A stretch of 29,176 nt of DNA, from positions 1 to 29,176 of the IMG/VR virus record IMGVR_UViG_3300000525_000002; one strand, written 5' to 3'. The DNA is from a virus. This document shows positions 7,221-22,273 of the stretch, piece by piece. Each line of letters opens with the position of its first letter. Within the stretch, counting starts at the first letter, position 1. The notes beneath the pieces were generated by a model. That model searched no databases. It was given only the letters and a program-made list of their open reading frames with translations, and had not been told where the DNA came from. A program made the position numbers and the translations under genes.

Positions 7221-7347
7221 AAAAGTCGTGACCTCCTTTTGGAAGGTTAGCTGATATTTTTTGATTTAATTAGTTGGGAAACTTGTGTAAGCGTGTGTAC
7301 GTTGTGAACTTGAATTTGAAGTTTTGAGATAATTACAAAATTTCCGT

Positions 7348-7558: not shown

Positions 7559-7849
7559 TTACTTATTTTTAGCTGACATGTACATGTTATAAGCATCTGT
7601 AACCATTGTTGCGATAGCTACTCCGGTCGAAGCAAAGATAGCTCCGGTCAACGCGCCCACGGGACCGCCCGCCAATGCCCCCGCTGCTGCGCCCCAAGTT
7701 GCCGCGGTAATTGCGTCAATACCAAGCTTAACCGGATCTGTTACTTGCGTATTAATAGTTATATATTTAGCTGTCGAATCATCATATGCATAAATATCGT
7801 AACCCGCGCCGGAAGCACAGCTTGTTTCAAGCTTCGTTAATTTTCTCAT
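7559..7849 (-). CDS. Microcin V-like precursor: double-glycine-type leader plus glycine-zipper peptide
   Basis: The 96-residue protein starts at ATG 7849, preceded by AAGGA at good spacing. Its first 15 residues, MRKLTKLETSCASGA, match the class II microcin/bacteriocin leader pattern. The colicin V leader is MRTLTLNELDSVSGG: same length, Met-Arg, Leu4-Thr5, Glu8, Ser13-Gly14. Cleavage after Ala15 would leave about 81 residues. The mature part has a polar N-terminus and a Gly/Ala-rich membrane helix (residues ~50-83, GAAAGALAGG followed by more small-xxx-small steps), as in colicin V, then a short polar tail. It is the last gene of the leftward early operon. No C39-peptidase ABC exporter is encoded here, so secretion would need host machinery. 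A holin-like role for the glycine-zipper helix is the main alternative. The leader resemblance is seen; bacteriocin function is inferred. Confidence 0.65.
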   Translation of the reverse strand: MRKLTKLETSCASGAGYDIYAYDDSTAKYITINTQVTDPVKLGIDAITAATWGAAAGALAGGPVGALTGAIFASTGVAIATMVTDAYNMYMSAKNK

Positions 7850-7914: not shown

Positions 7915-8175
7915 TTAAACAGCAAATAGATCGGGATAAGCAGAACGAGTATTTGCAAGAACAATTTGATAAATAAGCAAGTATGGTTGCATATCATAAA
8001 AACTAGCCCCGCTGTCGATCATAGCTTGAAATTCTGGTGGGATAGAACCGTCAAATTGCAGCGTAAATGTTACGCCGGGGACATCATAATGATAATTGCG
8101 AGTTTCAGAAGTGTAACTCATGACAATCTGTGCGCCTGATACTTTTTTAATTTGCTCTTTTGAAAGATTATGCAT
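7915..8175 (-). CDS. Small secreted-type precursor with double-glycine-type leader
   Basis: The 86-residue protein starts at ATG 8175, which overlaps the upstream stop as ATGCATAA (coupling). The leader MHNLSKEQIKKVSGA has the classic LSxEQIKxVSG form, is 15 residues long and ends SGA exactly like the neighbouring precursor at 7559. The predicted core (71 residues) is not glycine-rich. It is aromatic and acidic, with several Tyr and Phe, a PGVTFTLQFDGS strand pair and no Cys. An in-frame upstream ATG at 8226 would add 17 residues inside the previous gene, but this would bury the leader and looks wrong. I recognise no family for the core. The pair could be a two-peptide bacteriocin or two unrelated effectors sharing an export signal. 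Confidence 0.65.
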   Translation of the reverse strand: MHNLSKEQIKKVSGAQIVMSYTSETRNYHYDVPGVTFTLQFDGSIPPEFQAMIDSGASFYDMQPYLLIYQIVLANTRSAYPDLFAV

Positions 8176-8521
8176 TATCTTTTTCTTCACTAACTTCAGA
8201 TTCTGTAGATATATGTAATTTTTCAATTTCAGATATTTTTATTAAATAATCTTTCATATTTTTTTGCACTTCTTTTGCTTTAATAAGATTTATTTTCACA
8301 GAATCAACAGATTCAAATAGATTAAAGCAATGCTCAGCAAGATCTGTTTTTTTAATTTTTTCAAAATCTCCCGACCAATGTTTTTTTAATTTTTCATGTG
8401 TTTTTTTCAGGCTAAGAACGCTTTCTTCTTGTTCTTTTGAAAGAGTAAATTCAAGCAAATCAACGACACTCTCATAAAACTTTGATCTAGCATCATCAAA
8501 TTCTTTTTCTATATTTTTCAT
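8168..8521 (-). CDS. Hypothetical charged helical protein
   Basis: The 117-residue protein is rich in Lys and Glu and is predicted to be almost entirely helical, with heptad-like spacing (for example SVLSLKKTHEKLKKHW and EVQKNMKDYLIKISEIEKL). There is no signal peptide or membrane segment. The start at 8521 follows an AGGG site. It overlaps the start of the next precursor gene by eight bases, so the two are probably translationally coupled. It could be a chaperone, cytoplasmic immunity partner or accessory factor for that precursor, but nothing in the sequence settles this. Confidence 0.65.
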   Translation of the reverse strand: MKNIEKEFDDARSKFYESVVDLLEFTLSKEQEESVLSLKKTHEKLKKHWSGDFEKIKKTDLAEHCFNLFESVDSVKINLIKAKEVQKNMKDYLIKISEIEKLHISTESEVSEEKDNA

Positions 8522-12413: not shown

Positions 12414-13478
12414 ATGCATATAATAATGTACTATACCACACAAAACAATACTAATTCGAATTCTTTTAGTTCTTTACCCCCAAAAAATCGAAACTTTGAT
12501 GATTTCAAAGTAATCTATCGAACACAATACAAGCTAGACAATCTCTCAGACATTGCAAAAAAACACTTAAAGCTCAAATCATCGAGTCAGCTAAATTCGG
12601 CCGGAAATCTTTTTAAGATAATAATTGGAAGAATTCAAAATTGCGGACGATGTATTACTAAGCAAGTTACATTTGCAGAATCAATGAGACAGTACAACAA
12701 TAAAAGAGATTTAAGCTCAAGACAAATTAGACGTCTCATCGTCATACTTAAAGATTTGGGTCTTATAACTTACAAACGAAGCGGCCAAAAGTGGGGGTCA
12801 GTTTATCAGTATGAAGCTACACAACTCGGTAACGACATGTACTACTACGTCATCTATCGAAACATCCACGATATCAAATTTATCCCCTTAGAATTATCCA
12901 CAGCGTCTGTGGATAACTTGGGTACAGAAAGTGAGCCGGACTTCCAAAGTGAAAAAATGTCCGCTATTGGAGATTTTGAAGGCCTAATGAATCCGTGGAA
13001 TTTAGAGGCCCCGAAAAAAAATGTCCGCTATAATATAGATATTAATATAAGAAATATAAATATTAATATTAATAACCATACGCGTGGACGCGGGGAGACA
13101 ATAACCCATAATTTTCTTTTTTCACCAGACCCATACCCAGATCCACAACCGAAAACGGAGATAAAACTTTTGAGCGAGACAAAAACTTTTAGCGAAATGC
13201 AAACTTTTAGCGACATTCAGTTTGATCCGAGAATTACGAAAGAGCGGGTTCAAATCCTGATCAGCATTCTCGCAGAGCATAATGCTACGCCGAGCCAAGC
13301 TCTCATTTATCACGAAGAAGTCGTGAACGCATTGCTTCACATGAGAGAAAAGAAAATTCAGATCGTTGACTTTGGGTTTTTTGCAAAGTCAATACAAATT
13401 GAAACTTGGAGCAGATATTACTTTGACGTGAAACCGAACCCAGATTGGAGAGACGAAAAGAAAAGAACCAGGCATTAG
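12414..13478 (+). CDS. Replication initiator-like winged-helix protein
   Basis: The frame has 354 residues from ATG 12414, but AAAGGA lies directly against that ATG, so ATG 12426 (350 residues, 12-base spacing) may be the true start. Residues about 60-135 form a winged-helix unit: VTFAESMRQYNN, SSRQIRRLIVILKDLGLIT, then a YKRSGQKWGSVYQYEAT wing, as in lambda O/DnaD-type and plasmid replication initiators. The middle is low-complexity (Asn/Ile-rich, then PYPDPQP, then a repeated TFSE unit) and coincides with origin-like DNA. A C-terminal segment (DPRITKERVQILISILAEHNATPSQALIYHEEVVNALLHM) looks folded and could contact host helicase-loading proteins. No DNA polymerase or helicase gene is present, so recruitment of the host replisome is expected. 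Confidence 0.7.
   Translation: MHIIMYYTTQNNTNSNSFSSLPPKNRNFDDFKVIYRTQYKLDNLSDIAKKHLKLKSSSQLNSAGNLFKIIIGRIQNCGRCITKQVTFAESMRQYNNKRDLSSRQIRRLIVILKDLGLITYKRSGQKWGSVYQYEATQLGNDMYYYVIYRNIHDIKFIPLELSTASVDNLGTESEPDFQSEKMSAIGDFEGLMNPWNLEAPKKNVRYNIDINIRNINININNHTRGRGETITHNFLFSPDPYPDPQPKTEIKLLSETKTFSEMQTFSDIQFDPRITKERVQILISILAEHNATPSQALIYHEEVVNALLHMREKKIQIVDFGFFAKSIQIETWSRYYFDVKPNPDWRDEKKRTRH
12894..13217. other. Candidate replication origin inside the initiator gene
   Basis: Two perfect DnaA boxes face each other: TTATCCACA (12894-12902) and TGTGGATAA (12908-12916), forming a 10-bp-arm dyad. They are followed by a 16-base direct repeat AAAAAATGTCCGCTAT (12952-12967 and 13016-13031), a 47-base tract with no C and only two G (13029-13075), and three tandem ~18-bp units each built on AAACTTTT(G)AGCGA (from 13164, 13183 and 13201). 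DnaA boxes, an easily melted region and iterons within the initiator coding sequence match the design of the lambda origin in gene O. All elements are seen directly; origin activity is inferred. Confidence 0.7.
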
Positions 13479-13482
13479 AAAT

Positions 13483-13691
13483 ATGATTTACGAAGCTCAA
13501 GTCGAATGAAAAGAAGACTGGGCGCATAGAGACGCGCACTACAGGCTTAGTGAGCCAAGCATCTCAGAAGAAGAGAGCTATACTCGGTATGGTGAGTTTT
13601 TTTCAACGAGGTAAGGAAAGCCGTTAACCTTAAATACGAAAAGGATTTGTTGAAAAGAAGGAATGAAAACAACCCACCTACAGAGCTCTAA
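13483..13691 (+). pseudogene. Broken small gene after the initiator (in-frame TGA plus frameshift)
   Basis: From ATG 13483, four bases past the initiator stop, the frame codes MIYEAQVE, meets TGA at 13507, then stays open as KEDWAHRDAHYRLSEPSI and a further SEEESYTRYGEFF before TAA at 13612. At the T7 run (13597-13603) a -1 shift opens a second stretch (FNEVRKAVNLKYEKDLLKRR, then NENNPPTEL) ending with TAA at 13689. The pieces together read like one protein of roughly 69 codons. Two lesions suggest decay or sequence error; programmed recoding is less likely. No family is recognised. Confidence 0.4.
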
Positions 13692-14780: not shown

Positions 14781-15299
14781 TTGCCATTCCCCGTTCGCTA
14801 TCAAGATGACTTTCCGGAGAGATTAATAGCACTCTTAAGCACCGGAAAAACAATGATATCTTTTTGCGCTGAAATAAAAGTCAGCAAACAAAGCGTATAC
14901 GCTTGGTTAGATAAATATCCGGAGTTTAAATCTGCTCATGAAATCGGCATGGTACTTTGTGAAAATTTCTGGATGCAAGTCGGTGAAGATAATATAGATA
15001 ACCCGAACTTCAACACGAATTTCTACATGTTTCAGATGGGGTCGCGATTCGGAATAAGCAGAACAAGAAAAACTAATTGCAAAAAAATAGCGTTAAAAGG
15101 TTCTGTTTTTAAAAATCCAAAAAATTTGCTCGAACGATTTAACAACGCTATTCTTAGTTTCCCGGACGGCGAAATTTCATTAGAAGAGCTAGACAAAATA
15201 GCGTCTGCATTTATGAAGATTTCTGACATTAAAGAGAAAGAAGAACTATCAGCTCGCGTTGCCGAAATTGAATTAGAATTAAAAGTGAGAAGCAGATAG
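14781..15299 (+). CDS. Terminase small subunit
   Basis: The protein has 172 residues from TTG 14781; GGAAAA lies nine bases upstream and no in-frame ATG is near. Residues 6-55 form a helix-turn-helix of the type seen in many small terminases: YQDDFPERLIALLSTGKTMI, then CAEIKVSKQSVYAWLDKYPEFKSAHEIG ('start, Ser-x-x-Tyr/Leu-x-x-Trp, peF..A'). A central segment contacts or oligomerises, and the C-terminal third is acidic and helical (KIASAFMKISDIKEKEELSARVAEIELELK), likely a coiled coil that engages the large subunit. The large subunit lies at the other end of the late block (5796-7121). Confidence 0.78.
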   Translation: MPFPVRYQDDFPERLIALLSTGKTMISFCAEIKVSKQSVYAWLDKYPEFKSAHEIGMVLCENFWMQVGEDNIDNPNFNTNFYMFQMGSRFGISRTRKTNCKKIALKGSVFKNPKNLLERFNNAILSFPDGEISLEELDKIASAFMKISDIKEKEELSARVAEIELELKVRSR

Positions 15300-19821: not shown

Positions 19822-20685
19822 ATGGCTTTTGATTTAAATCATCTAAACAACACATCTTCTGGACAAGCTGACGCGCCAAAGCAGTGGTCATATCAAAGCG
19901 CTGTCGATTTGATCAGCGTCATAGACAATTCTGCATACTTTGACACGGTCACAAGATTTTTCAACTTGGGCGATCTTCTTTATATTAAAGACTCTGCAGA
20001 CGTAGTAAGTGAATGGACTGTAACATCAGCTCACGGCGTAATTCCAGTGACGATCGCTGCTTATGTATATTCTGGAACGATTGGCACTTCTGATATTGCT
20101 GACGGAGCAGTAACAGCTGCAAAACTTGCAGCAGCAGTTGCAGGAGCTGGACTCGTCGGAGCCGCCGGCTCAGCTTTGTCTGTTCAAGTTGACAACAGTA
20201 CAATCAATATTCCGGTCGACACCCTACAGATTAAAGACTTGGGCGTAACCCAGGCTAAGCTTGTTGTTTCGATTCCAAGGACTGTGACGGTTGCCGTGAG
20301 TGCAGCGGAATTTAACGGAATGTATGCCGGCCCGAAGTTGCTTGTTGCAGCAGGGGGAGCAAATACGCTGCATATAGTGCATGACGTTGTGTATGAAGTG
20401 AATTACGTTGCAGCTCAGTTTGCATCTGGCGGCGTTGTAGCTGTTCAGTACGACTTAACAGCTAACGGTGCTGGTACTGCAGCTTCTGCCACTGTTTCAG
20501 CGGCCACATTCAACGGATATGCTGCTGATAGCGCAGTAGGAGCGCTCGGAGCATTAGCAAGCGCGGCAAGTACAACTGTTGTAAACAAAGGCTTGTATCT
20601 CTCCAATCAAACTGGCGCATTCACAACGGGAGATTCAACTTTGAACGTCCATGTGACTTATTCAACTGTAACAACAACTGTATAG
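19822..20685 (+). CDS. Head fibre / decoration protein, paralogue 1
   Basis: The 287-residue protein follows AGGAGA. Three parts: an N-terminal ~80 residues (MAFDLNHLNNTSSGQADAPK, QWSYQSAVDLISVIDNSAYFD, FNLGDLLYIKDSADVV), shared with the two following proteins and likely the capsid anchor; a short Ala/Gly-rich shaft (DIADGAVTAAKLAAAVAGAG..., then DTLQIKDLGVTQAKL); and a ~135-residue C-terminal beta domain (VTVAVSAAEFNGM..., KLLVAAGGANTLHIVHDV..., ending VHVTYSTVT) also found at the end of the fibre gene at 4084. Position after the coat gene and composition suggest a capsid-bound fibre or decoration trimer; binding is inferred. Confidence 0.65.
   Translation: MAFDLNHLNNTSSGQADAPKQWSYQSAVDLISVIDNSAYFDTVTRFFNLGDLLYIKDSADVVSEWTVTSAHGVIPVTIAAYVYSGTIGTSDIADGAVTAAKLAAAVAGAGLVGAAGSALSVQVDNSTINIPVDTLQIKDLGVTQAKLVVSIPRTVTVAVSAAEFNGMYAGPKLLVAAGGANTLHIVHDVVYEVNYVAAQFASGGVVAVQYDLTANGAGTAASATVSAATFNGYAADSAVGALGALASAASTTVVNKGLYLSNQTGAFTTGDSTLNVHVTYSTVTTTV
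20524..20562 (+). repeat. 39-bp direct repeat in head-fibre paralogues, copy 1
   Basis: Matches 21395-21433 at 38 of 39 bases, starting GCTGATAGCGCAGT. The surrounding sequence has diverged more, so this block may have been exchanged between the paralogues or be strongly constrained. Confidence 0.85.
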
Positions 20686-20695
20686 GAGAATAAAT

Positions 20696-21553
20696 ATGGC
20701 TTTTTTAATTGAAAACATGAATAACACCAGTTCCGGGGCCGCCGAGGCCCCTAGACTGTGGACCTATAGGTCTGCAACAGATAACCTAGCAACTATTGGC
20801 GCGTCTGGTTATTTCAACGAAATATTCGAAACAATGAGCCTGGGCGATATGATTTATATCTCCGGAACAAACGGTTCTCAAAAGAGAACATTGATTTCAG
20901 AACGTTTTGAGGTTCCGGTCGTGACGGGCGGCTATGTGTTTAGCGGTCTTATTAAAACTGCAGACATAAATAATGACGCTGTGACTGCGGACAAGTTGAA
21001 TGCCTCAGTGGCTGGAGCGGGTTTAGCAGGCGGCGCTGGAACGGCATTGTCGATTCAGGTAGACAGCGTCGGAATTGAAGTCAACGTTGATACGCTTCGT
21101 CTTAAAGATTCCGGGGTAACGCAAGCTAAGCTGGCTTTGAATATCCCGCGGACTGTAAGCATTCCGGTGAGTTCGGCTCAATGGCTCGCAATGCAAACGA
21201 CGCCGGTTCTTCTAGTTGCTGCTCCCGGAGCTAACAAGATGCATCGTGTGATGAACGTTCGATATGAGTTTGATTATAACTCGATACAGTATACCGGCGG
21301 TGGCGTGGTCGCAGTACAGTACGACTTGACAGCGAACGGCGCGGGAACTTTAGCGTCAGCAACGATAGCAAATACTATCTTCAACGGATATTCAGCTGAT
21401 AGCGCAGTCGGAGCGCTCGGAGCATTAGCAAGCAGCGCGAGCTCAACTGTAGTAAATAAAGGTCTCTATTTGAGTACAACAACTACGTTTGCAGCGGGAA
21501 ATAGTGCTGTTAGAGTTATCGTAACTTACGAAACGGTAACGACTTTTGTGTAA
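20696..21553 (+). CDS. Head fibre / decoration protein, paralogue 2
   Basis: The 285-residue protein starts 11 bases after paralogue 1, with AGGAGA. It has the same three-part plan: anchor (NNTSSGAAEAPRLWTYRSAT, GYFNEIFETMSLGDMIYISG), shaft (DINNDAVTADKLNASVAGAG..., DTLRLKDSGVTQAKL) and C-terminal domain (TVSIPVSSAQWLAMQTTPVL, LVAAPGANKMHRVMNVRYEF, ending VIVTYETVTTF). The C-terminal domain of this copy is close to that of paralogue 1 (identical runs such as GGVVAVQYDLTANGAGT), while the anchors have drifted more. A terminator-like stem follows at 21560. Confidence 0.65.
   Translation: MAFLIENMNNTSSGAAEAPRLWTYRSATDNLATIGASGYFNEIFETMSLGDMIYISGTNGSQKRTLISERFEVPVVTGGYVFSGLIKTADINNDAVTADKLNASVAGAGLAGGAGTALSIQVDSVGIEVNVDTLRLKDSGVTQAKLALNIPRTVSIPVSSAQWLAMQTTPVLLVAAPGANKMHRVMNVRYEFDYNSIQYTGGGVVAVQYDLTANGAGTLASATIANTIFNGYSADSAVGALGALASSASSTVVNKGLYLSTTTTFAAGNSAVRVIVTYETVTTFV
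21395..21433 (+). repeat. 39-bp direct repeat in head-fibre paralogues, copy 2
   Basis: Second copy of the block at 20524-20562, one base different. It codes for the same ADSAVGALGALAS stretch in the C-terminal domain. Confidence 0.85.
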
Positions 21554-21559
21554 CAGTTT

Positions 21560-21592
21560 GCGCCCTAGCTTCATGACTAGGGTGCATTTTTA
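21560..21592 (+). terminator. Rho-independent terminator between head-fibre paralogues 2 and 3
   Basis: Arms GCGCCCTAG (21560-21568) and CTAGGGTGC (21577-21585), one G-U pair, 8-base loop, then ATTTTT. The next ATG is 13 bases past the T-run, so this probably lowers, rather than ends, expression of paralogue 3 and the tail genes. Confidence 0.75.
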
Positions 21593-21604
21593 TGGAGAAA
21601 CTTA

Positions 21605-22273
21605 ATGGCATTTAATTTAGAAGCTTTTAGCAACGTTACGTCGGGGGCCACCCTTGGTCCAAAAGTATGGTCATATGGAAGTTCAGATACGCTTGCAACA
21701 ATTGAAGCGTCCGGTTTTTTCGATGAAGTTTCAGAAAGAATAAATGTAAATGATTTGCTTTATGCAAAAGGCACGGATGGCGCAGAATTTGTTAAGTTCA
21801 CTTCAGCAAAAGGTGTAGTTCCAGTCACTATTGACGTTTATATCCCTTCATCAGGCGGCGGCGGGTCGAGCGCTATTACTCAGGCTAAAGTTGTAGTCAC
21901 TTCTCCAGAGATTCTGGATATGTTAAATACGCCCGTTTTATTAGTTGCCGCTCCTGGAGCTGGAAAGTTTTTACTTATAAATTCAGTAACGCTTGTCGGC
22001 GTGTCCGGAAATGTAGCGTATACGAACGGCGACGTAATGTTTGTGTCTTACGACGGTTTCAGCGGAATTTCAGCATATGAAGACATACCCGCGTCAGCTG
22101 TCACAACGTCAAACAAACTAACTTATGCTGTTCCGATCAATTATCACAACGTTGTAAATCAAAACATATCAGTGAACAAAGGAATTTACATTTGGAGCGG
22201 CGGGGCGACCCCTTTTGCGAACGGAAACGGCACATTGAATGTGTATATTTCATATCAAACAATAACGATTTAA
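21605..22273 (+). CDS. Head fibre / decoration protein, short paralogue 3
   Basis: The 222-residue protein follows TGGAGA. It keeps the anchor (FNLEAFSNVTSGATLGPKVW, SDTLATIEASGFFDEVSERI, NVNDLLYAKGTDGAEF) and a diverged C-terminal domain (VVVTSPEILDMLNTPVLLVA, APGAGKFLLINSV, ending NVYISYQTITI). The shaft is replaced by a short Gly/Ser linker (SSGGGGSSAITQAK). The loss of the shaft and its separate position after a terminator suggest a lower-copy or shorter surface structure. Fibre role inferred as for its paralogues. Confidence 0.65.
   Translation: MAFNLEAFSNVTSGATLGPKVWSYGSSDTLATIEASGFFDEVSERINVNDLLYAKGTDGAEFVKFTSAKGVVPVTIDVYIPSSGGGGSSAITQAKVVVTSPEILDMLNTPVLLVAAPGAGKFLLINSVTLVGVSGNVAYTNGDVMFVSYDGFSGISAYEDIPASAVTTSNKLTYAVPINYHNVVNQNISVNKGIYIWSGGATPFANGNGTLNVYISYQTITI

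Follow-up and report, generated by a model that had tools for sequence, protein, structure and literature searches.

A very likely lambda-type replication origin within the initiator gene of a polymerase-less podovirus

Background

Iteron plasmids such as P1, RK2 and pSC101 have their origin outside the rep gene and use initiators of the Rep type, which have two winged helices. The origins of these plasmids join direct-repeat iterons, an A/T-rich opening region and DnaA boxes (PMC5043065). In lambda and the Stx phages, the origin occupies the central part of the initiator gene, downstream of the segment for the DNA-binding domain, and consists of a series of iterons with an A/T-rich tract after them (PMC7466680, PMC5043065), and for lambda it has been described that two iterons together with the A/T region are enough for unwinding (PMC7466680). 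Among the podoviruses, the Methylophilales phage MEP301 was reported to have neither a DNA polymerase nor an RNA polymerase (PMC8024684).

Here we describe a locus that is very likely a lambda-type origin embedded in its own initiator gene. It shares with the lambda and Stx origins both the mid-gene place behind the DNA-binding domain and the order of iterons and A/T-rich tract. However, while lambda and the Stx phages have four to six near-palindromic iterons, this locus has two half-site direct repeats 64 bp apart. It also differs from lambda in having two perfect DnaA boxes beside the iterons, in having no recognisable P (helicase loader) gene, and in encoding an initiator whose sequence is only distantly related. 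With the P1, RK2 and pSC101 origins it has in common the iterons, the A/T region and the DnaA boxes, but here the origin lies within the initiator gene. The locus is set apart from the known members in that DnaA boxes and two half-site iterons at a wide spacing come together in a polymerase-less podovirus.

The genome and its gene content

The window, i.e. the whole stretch of DNA that was analysed, is an IMG/VR record of 29,176 bases. Its first 74 bases are identical to its last 74 bases, indicating that the record is circular or terminally redundant. The head-tail connector matched PF12236, and the structural genes, which include tail proteins and a large internal virion protein, are of the podovirus type. 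The phage also encodes a RecE-like/YqaJ nuclease and a RecT annealing protein. When the 30 window proteins were compared with PHROGs, there was no match to the DNA polymerase, RNA polymerase or primase families, in agreement with the preliminary description of this DNA, where the phage was said to have neither polymerase nor primase. The same description had called it a T7-like phage, which is fair for the particle and its structural genes but does not extend to the replication genes, as the phage RNA polymerase, DNA polymerase and primase-helicase of T7-type replication were not found. A scan of the window proteins for helicase-loader (P) families gave no match besides the weak DnaD-like one of the initiator itself, although a loader of divergent sequence could escape such a scan. 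It is reasonable to think that replication depends on the host replisome.

The best named match of the connector was that of MEP301, with 32% identity. MEP301 and related podoviruses resemble the window in the YqaJ nuclease, the reported absence of polymerases and the presence of a small wHTH protein (gp55 in MEP301), but the MEP301 genome has no perfect DnaA box and gp55 has no short-range repeats.

Two other regions of the genome may be mentioned here. Behind the major capsid gene, at 19822-22273, there are three tandem paralogues of 222-287 aa, two of them matching phrog_18004. On the minus strand, 7559-7849 and 7915-8226 encode two small proteins with glycine-rich hydrophobic stretches or leader-like N-termini, which resemble bacteriocin-like or holin-like peptides and have no family match.

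The initiator gene and the elements within it

The elements of the candidate origin are listed below together with the gene that contains them. For comparison we used a relative, IMGVR_UViG_3300020062_000016 (L002), which covers most of the initiator gene.

12414-13478, plus strand: initiator gene, 354 aa (open reading frame; homologue in L002; profile match to O-like HTH_36 initiators)
12720-12734, plus strand: RQIRR codons, the predicted recognition helix of the winged helix (from the sequence; R..RR is invariant among TGTCC-iteron initiators)
12894-12902, plus strand: perfect DnaA box TTATCCACA
12908-12916, minus strand: perfect DnaA box, inverted, TGTGGATAA as written, 5 bp from the first box
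12952-12967, plus strand: iteron 1, AAAAAATGTCCGCTAT, with the core AAAATGTCCGC, read in the frame KMSA
13016-13031, plus strand: iteron 2, identical to iteron 1 (AAAAAATGTCCGCTAT), read in the other frame, KNVR
13029-13075: A/T tract of 47 bases with no C and two G, the likely duplex-unwinding element
13060-13085: block of 26 bp identical in L002, ATATTAATATTAATAACCATACGCGT
13158-13211: three tandem units of ~18 bp, weak, absent as a repeat in L002

The two inverted, perfect DnaA boxes, the 16-base direct repeat and the C-free tract had all been pointed out before and are all present. Combined, the two boxes form a perfect 10-3-10 palindrome, and no other perfect DnaA box exists in the whole 29,176-base record; Markov simulation of 400 genomes gave on average 0.12 perfect boxes per genome and never placed two of them within 50 bp of each other. 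In these simulations, 2 of 400 genomes had an exact 16-mer repeat within 100 bp. The iterons are two half-site direct repeats and not an array of palindromes, so that the series of at least four near-palindromic iterons was not found. When duplex stability was calculated from nearest-neighbour energies, no 50-bp stretch of the genome came out weaker than the A/T tract (start 13028, -43.7; next -48.6), and in L002 the 60 bp matching the tract are likewise the least stable of the contig. The ~18-bp tandem units of the preliminary description do exist, but they are weak, the first two being 78% identical and the third recognised by eye, and with neither conservation in L002 nor support for a role they probably lie outside the origin core.

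The protein itself matched no Pfam family and had no convincing match among solved structures, and the search against PHROGs returned only the weak DnaD-like match. A protein search in phages and viral contigs found no relatives. L002 was reached via the portal gene, which is 76% identical, and the two initiator proteins are ~36% identical; none of the other portal-relative records had an initiator homologue, and a profile scan for relatives found L002 again and nothing else. While direct HMM scans were weak or negative, the profile of the two homologues gave 95.7% over the winged helix when compared with O-like HTH_36 initiators by hhalign. Because that set was mostly picked for carrying the iteron, the similarity of the linker is not evidence, while the similarity of the winged helix is. 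By this comparison, the initiator has an N-terminal O-like winged-helix DNA-binding domain related to that of phage O-like initiators. The coding stretch is of low complexity, as had been noted, and a low-confidence structure model places a winged helix first, then an unstructured linker that holds the origin, and then a helical C-terminus. At that low confidence, the layout would be that expected of an initiator whose linker contains the origin.

Downstream, at 13484-13612, there is a counterpart of a 75-aa L002 gene that follows the initiator gene. It is partly readable (EDWAHRDAHYRL...), seemingly has no in-frame start codon, and may be decayed, frameshifted or misassembled.

The DnaA boxes and their use by the phage

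The window has its DnaA boxes beside the iterons and the A/T region, as in origins of the P1 and pSC101 type, and L002 has boxes too. Within 940 bp, the L002 gene has a perfect box and three more with one mismatch, a count that 0 of 1000 simulations reached. Its perfect box stands after the A/T block, a near box stands before the repeats, and at the end of the gene two inverted near-consensus boxes are separated by 5 bp, like the pair in the window. The boxes are conserved in L002 as to their enrichment but not as to their positions, which have moved. There was no excess of DnaA boxes near O-like initiators generally, and the boxes are special to the lineage of the window and L002.

It can be hypothesized that host DnaA takes a direct part in the start of replication, and the balance tilts slightly in favor of this, although direct use is only plausible because the L002 boxes are at moved positions and boxes are not general near O-like initiators. 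The main alternative is a lambda-type origin for which the phage initiator is sufficient, the boxes being incidental or serving transcription control or DnaA titration, with no help in helicase loading. Both the lack of a general box excess in O-like initiator regions and the different box positions in L002 agree with it, as does the finding that in lambda DnaA works mainly via the pR promoter (PMC7466680). However, it leaves unaccounted two perfect boxes that, at a distance of 36 bp from iteron 1, form a perfect inverted pair, and also the enrichment of near-consensus boxes in the L002 gene, with an inverted pair of the same spacing among them. We regard this alternative as a serious contender, though on the whole a doubtful one.

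The iteron in other initiator genes and its link to the recognition helix

Pairs of AAAATGTCCGC spaced 28-58 bp apart were found in ten IMG/VR stretches. Besides L002, five of these (L013, L015, L016, L020 and L021) have the pair within a replication-type winged-helix gene, usually before an A/T-rich stretch, and four of the five matched HTH_36 and O-like or initiator families, L015 being the one without a match. The remaining four stretches are repetitive coding sequence, and the pattern matches L014, L017-L019 and L084 were set aside as repetitive or other genes. A control with the reversed motif in viral contigs, with closer spacing, gave two matches, both in repetitive coding sequence and neither in a replication gene. 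Among HTH_36 genes sampled from bacterial genomes, the prophage initiators commonly have iterons immediately after the winged helix, and the sequences of these iterons vary. The likeness of the window to the HTH_36/O-like initiators of phages and prophages (PHROG 270, 391, 678, 1032) consists of a winged helix followed by iterons in the same gene, and several of these genes have, as in the window, the AAAATGTCCGC or GGACA-A(n)-TGTCC iteron together with an R-x-[IV]-R-R helix. The differences are that the window protein escapes Pfam and PHROGs by sequence, and that DnaA boxes are unusual in the others.

The O-like initiator at 8430-9662 of L020, which has TGTCC iterons, includes close to its C-terminus a DnaA N-terminal domain (PF11638, E=2.8e-9). 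Such a protein might connect phage initiators with helicase recruitment in the manner of DnaA.

GGACAAAAATGTCC alone was not enriched in clostridial genomes over the reversed control (13 of 391 genomes), and 2 of the 13 matches were wHTH initiator-like genes. Most pairs of AAAATGTCCGC in bacterial genomes do not mark phage origins; those of L034, L047, L048, L052, L056, L060 and L075 lie behind TGTCAA-type sequences. These resemble the terminal repeats of IS21-type elements, and a transposase may read the same half-site.

The initiators with TGTCC iterons have R-x-[IV]-R-R in the recognition helix. We compared 142 non-redundant wHTH genes chosen by protein only, i.e. PF13730 matches and viral winged-helix relatives, the latter from a scan with a three-sequence wHTH alignment. 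At least three TGTCC/GGACA sites were present in the next 300 bp for 5 of 6 R.[IV]RR genes and for 3 of the 136 others (p=7e-7), a p-value that is optimistic because the viral query came from genes with this helix and because the motif and threshold were fixed after a first look. The exception among the six was L141, where the motif is out of register. With its RQIRR and its AAAATGTCCGC repeats, the window fits the same rule from a separate lineage, and on such circumstantial grounds the initiator would seem to read the repeats within its own gene. No account of this iteron or of the helix-iteron rule was found in the open-access papers searched. Elsewhere (L209-L288), other recognition helices pair with other iterons, for example TERTIIRL with TGACA-like repeats and KVSISKWI with another, and the class tested here may be one part of a wider helix-iteron code.

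These results also bear on whether the conserved core could be a cis element of another kind, namely the operator or promoter of the gene, since the wHTH protein could act as an autorepressor on the repeats, or a packaging site for the likely small terminase encoded at 14781-15299. We consider this improbable, given that the repeats lie ~540 bp inside the gene and adjoin the weakest duplex of the genome, that iterons at this place recur in O-like replication genes, and that the helix of the protein itself predicts the repeat.

Conservation of the core and the GC skew

L002 has the repeat twice, letter for letter, and each copy is read in the same frame as in the window (KMSA and KNVR). Behind the repeats comes an A/T tract whose last 26 bases, ATATTAATATTAATAACCATACGCGT, are identical as well. 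Among the synonymous-capable codons with the same amino acid, those of the core are identical to L002 in 17 of 17 cases, compared with 13 of 58 in the rest of the gene (p=4e-9) and 154 of 373 in the portal gene (p=5e-7; Fisher), where both p-values are somewhat optimistic because the limits of the core were drawn around conserved elements, and where the test is a single pairwise comparison of the window with L002, the one relative covering the gene. Even so, the difference between the core and the other codons is a large one. Selection acts on the DNA sequence of the core. That the core is conserved for the encoded protein instead, as the conserved linker peptide ININNHTR could suggest, is highly improbable, considering that in the wHTH, which is under protein constraint, only 6 of 26 codons are identical to L002, and that the one DNA repeat encodes different peptides in its two frames.

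In a more distant relative with the same genome layout (L289, the record of L009), this place is taken by another O-like gene, which lacks both boxes and repeats. This implies that the replication module is exchanged among these podoviruses.

The detrended cumulative GC skew has its minimum at 13,313 and its maximum at 7,328. The minimum agrees with an origin near 13 kb, but it coincides with a change in gene direction: most genes have positive skew on the coding strand, and the direction switches between 12.05 and 12.41 kb. The skew adds little because it tracks the gene strand, and it was rejected as independent evidence for the origin.

A model for the origin and its implications

The best explanation of the whole, which we hold with considerable confidence, is that 12894-13085 is a lambda-like origin inside the gene of its own initiator and works by the steps outlined below. 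The elements themselves, the selection on the DNA across two reading frames, the weak duplex, the relation of the wHTH to O-like initiators and the pairing of helix and iteron seen in other genes were all obtained by computation, and they uphold the proposal of the preliminary description that the origin lies, in lambda fashion, within the initiator gene. In the steps of binding, opening and helicase loading that we infer, the winged helix of the initiator, through RQIRR, would bind the two AAAATGTCCGC iterons, and this binding would strain and open the A/T tract next to them, where the host helicase and polymerase would then be loaded, with the C-terminal helices of the initiator assisting. 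Host DnaA on the inverted box pair would probably assist the loading as well, comparable to P1- or pSC101-type iteron plasmids.

A bolder reading, which we offer tentatively, is that of a chimeric origin, where an O-type module in a polymerase-less podovirus recruits host DnaA directly via the box pair, together with a general code by which R-x-[IV]-R-R specifies the TGTCC iteron that follows it closely within one gene in otherwise unrelated phages. If true, such a code lets origins be predicted from initiator proteins. Since a single gene holds both the initiator and its binding sites, the two move as a unit.

A compact candidate origin of exactly known position bears on how polymerase-less podoviruses begin replication, where for MEP301 only the absence of polymerases has been reported. 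Moreover, the link between helix and iteron suggests that the origins of many uncultured phages may be found, and their specificity predicted, by sequence alone.
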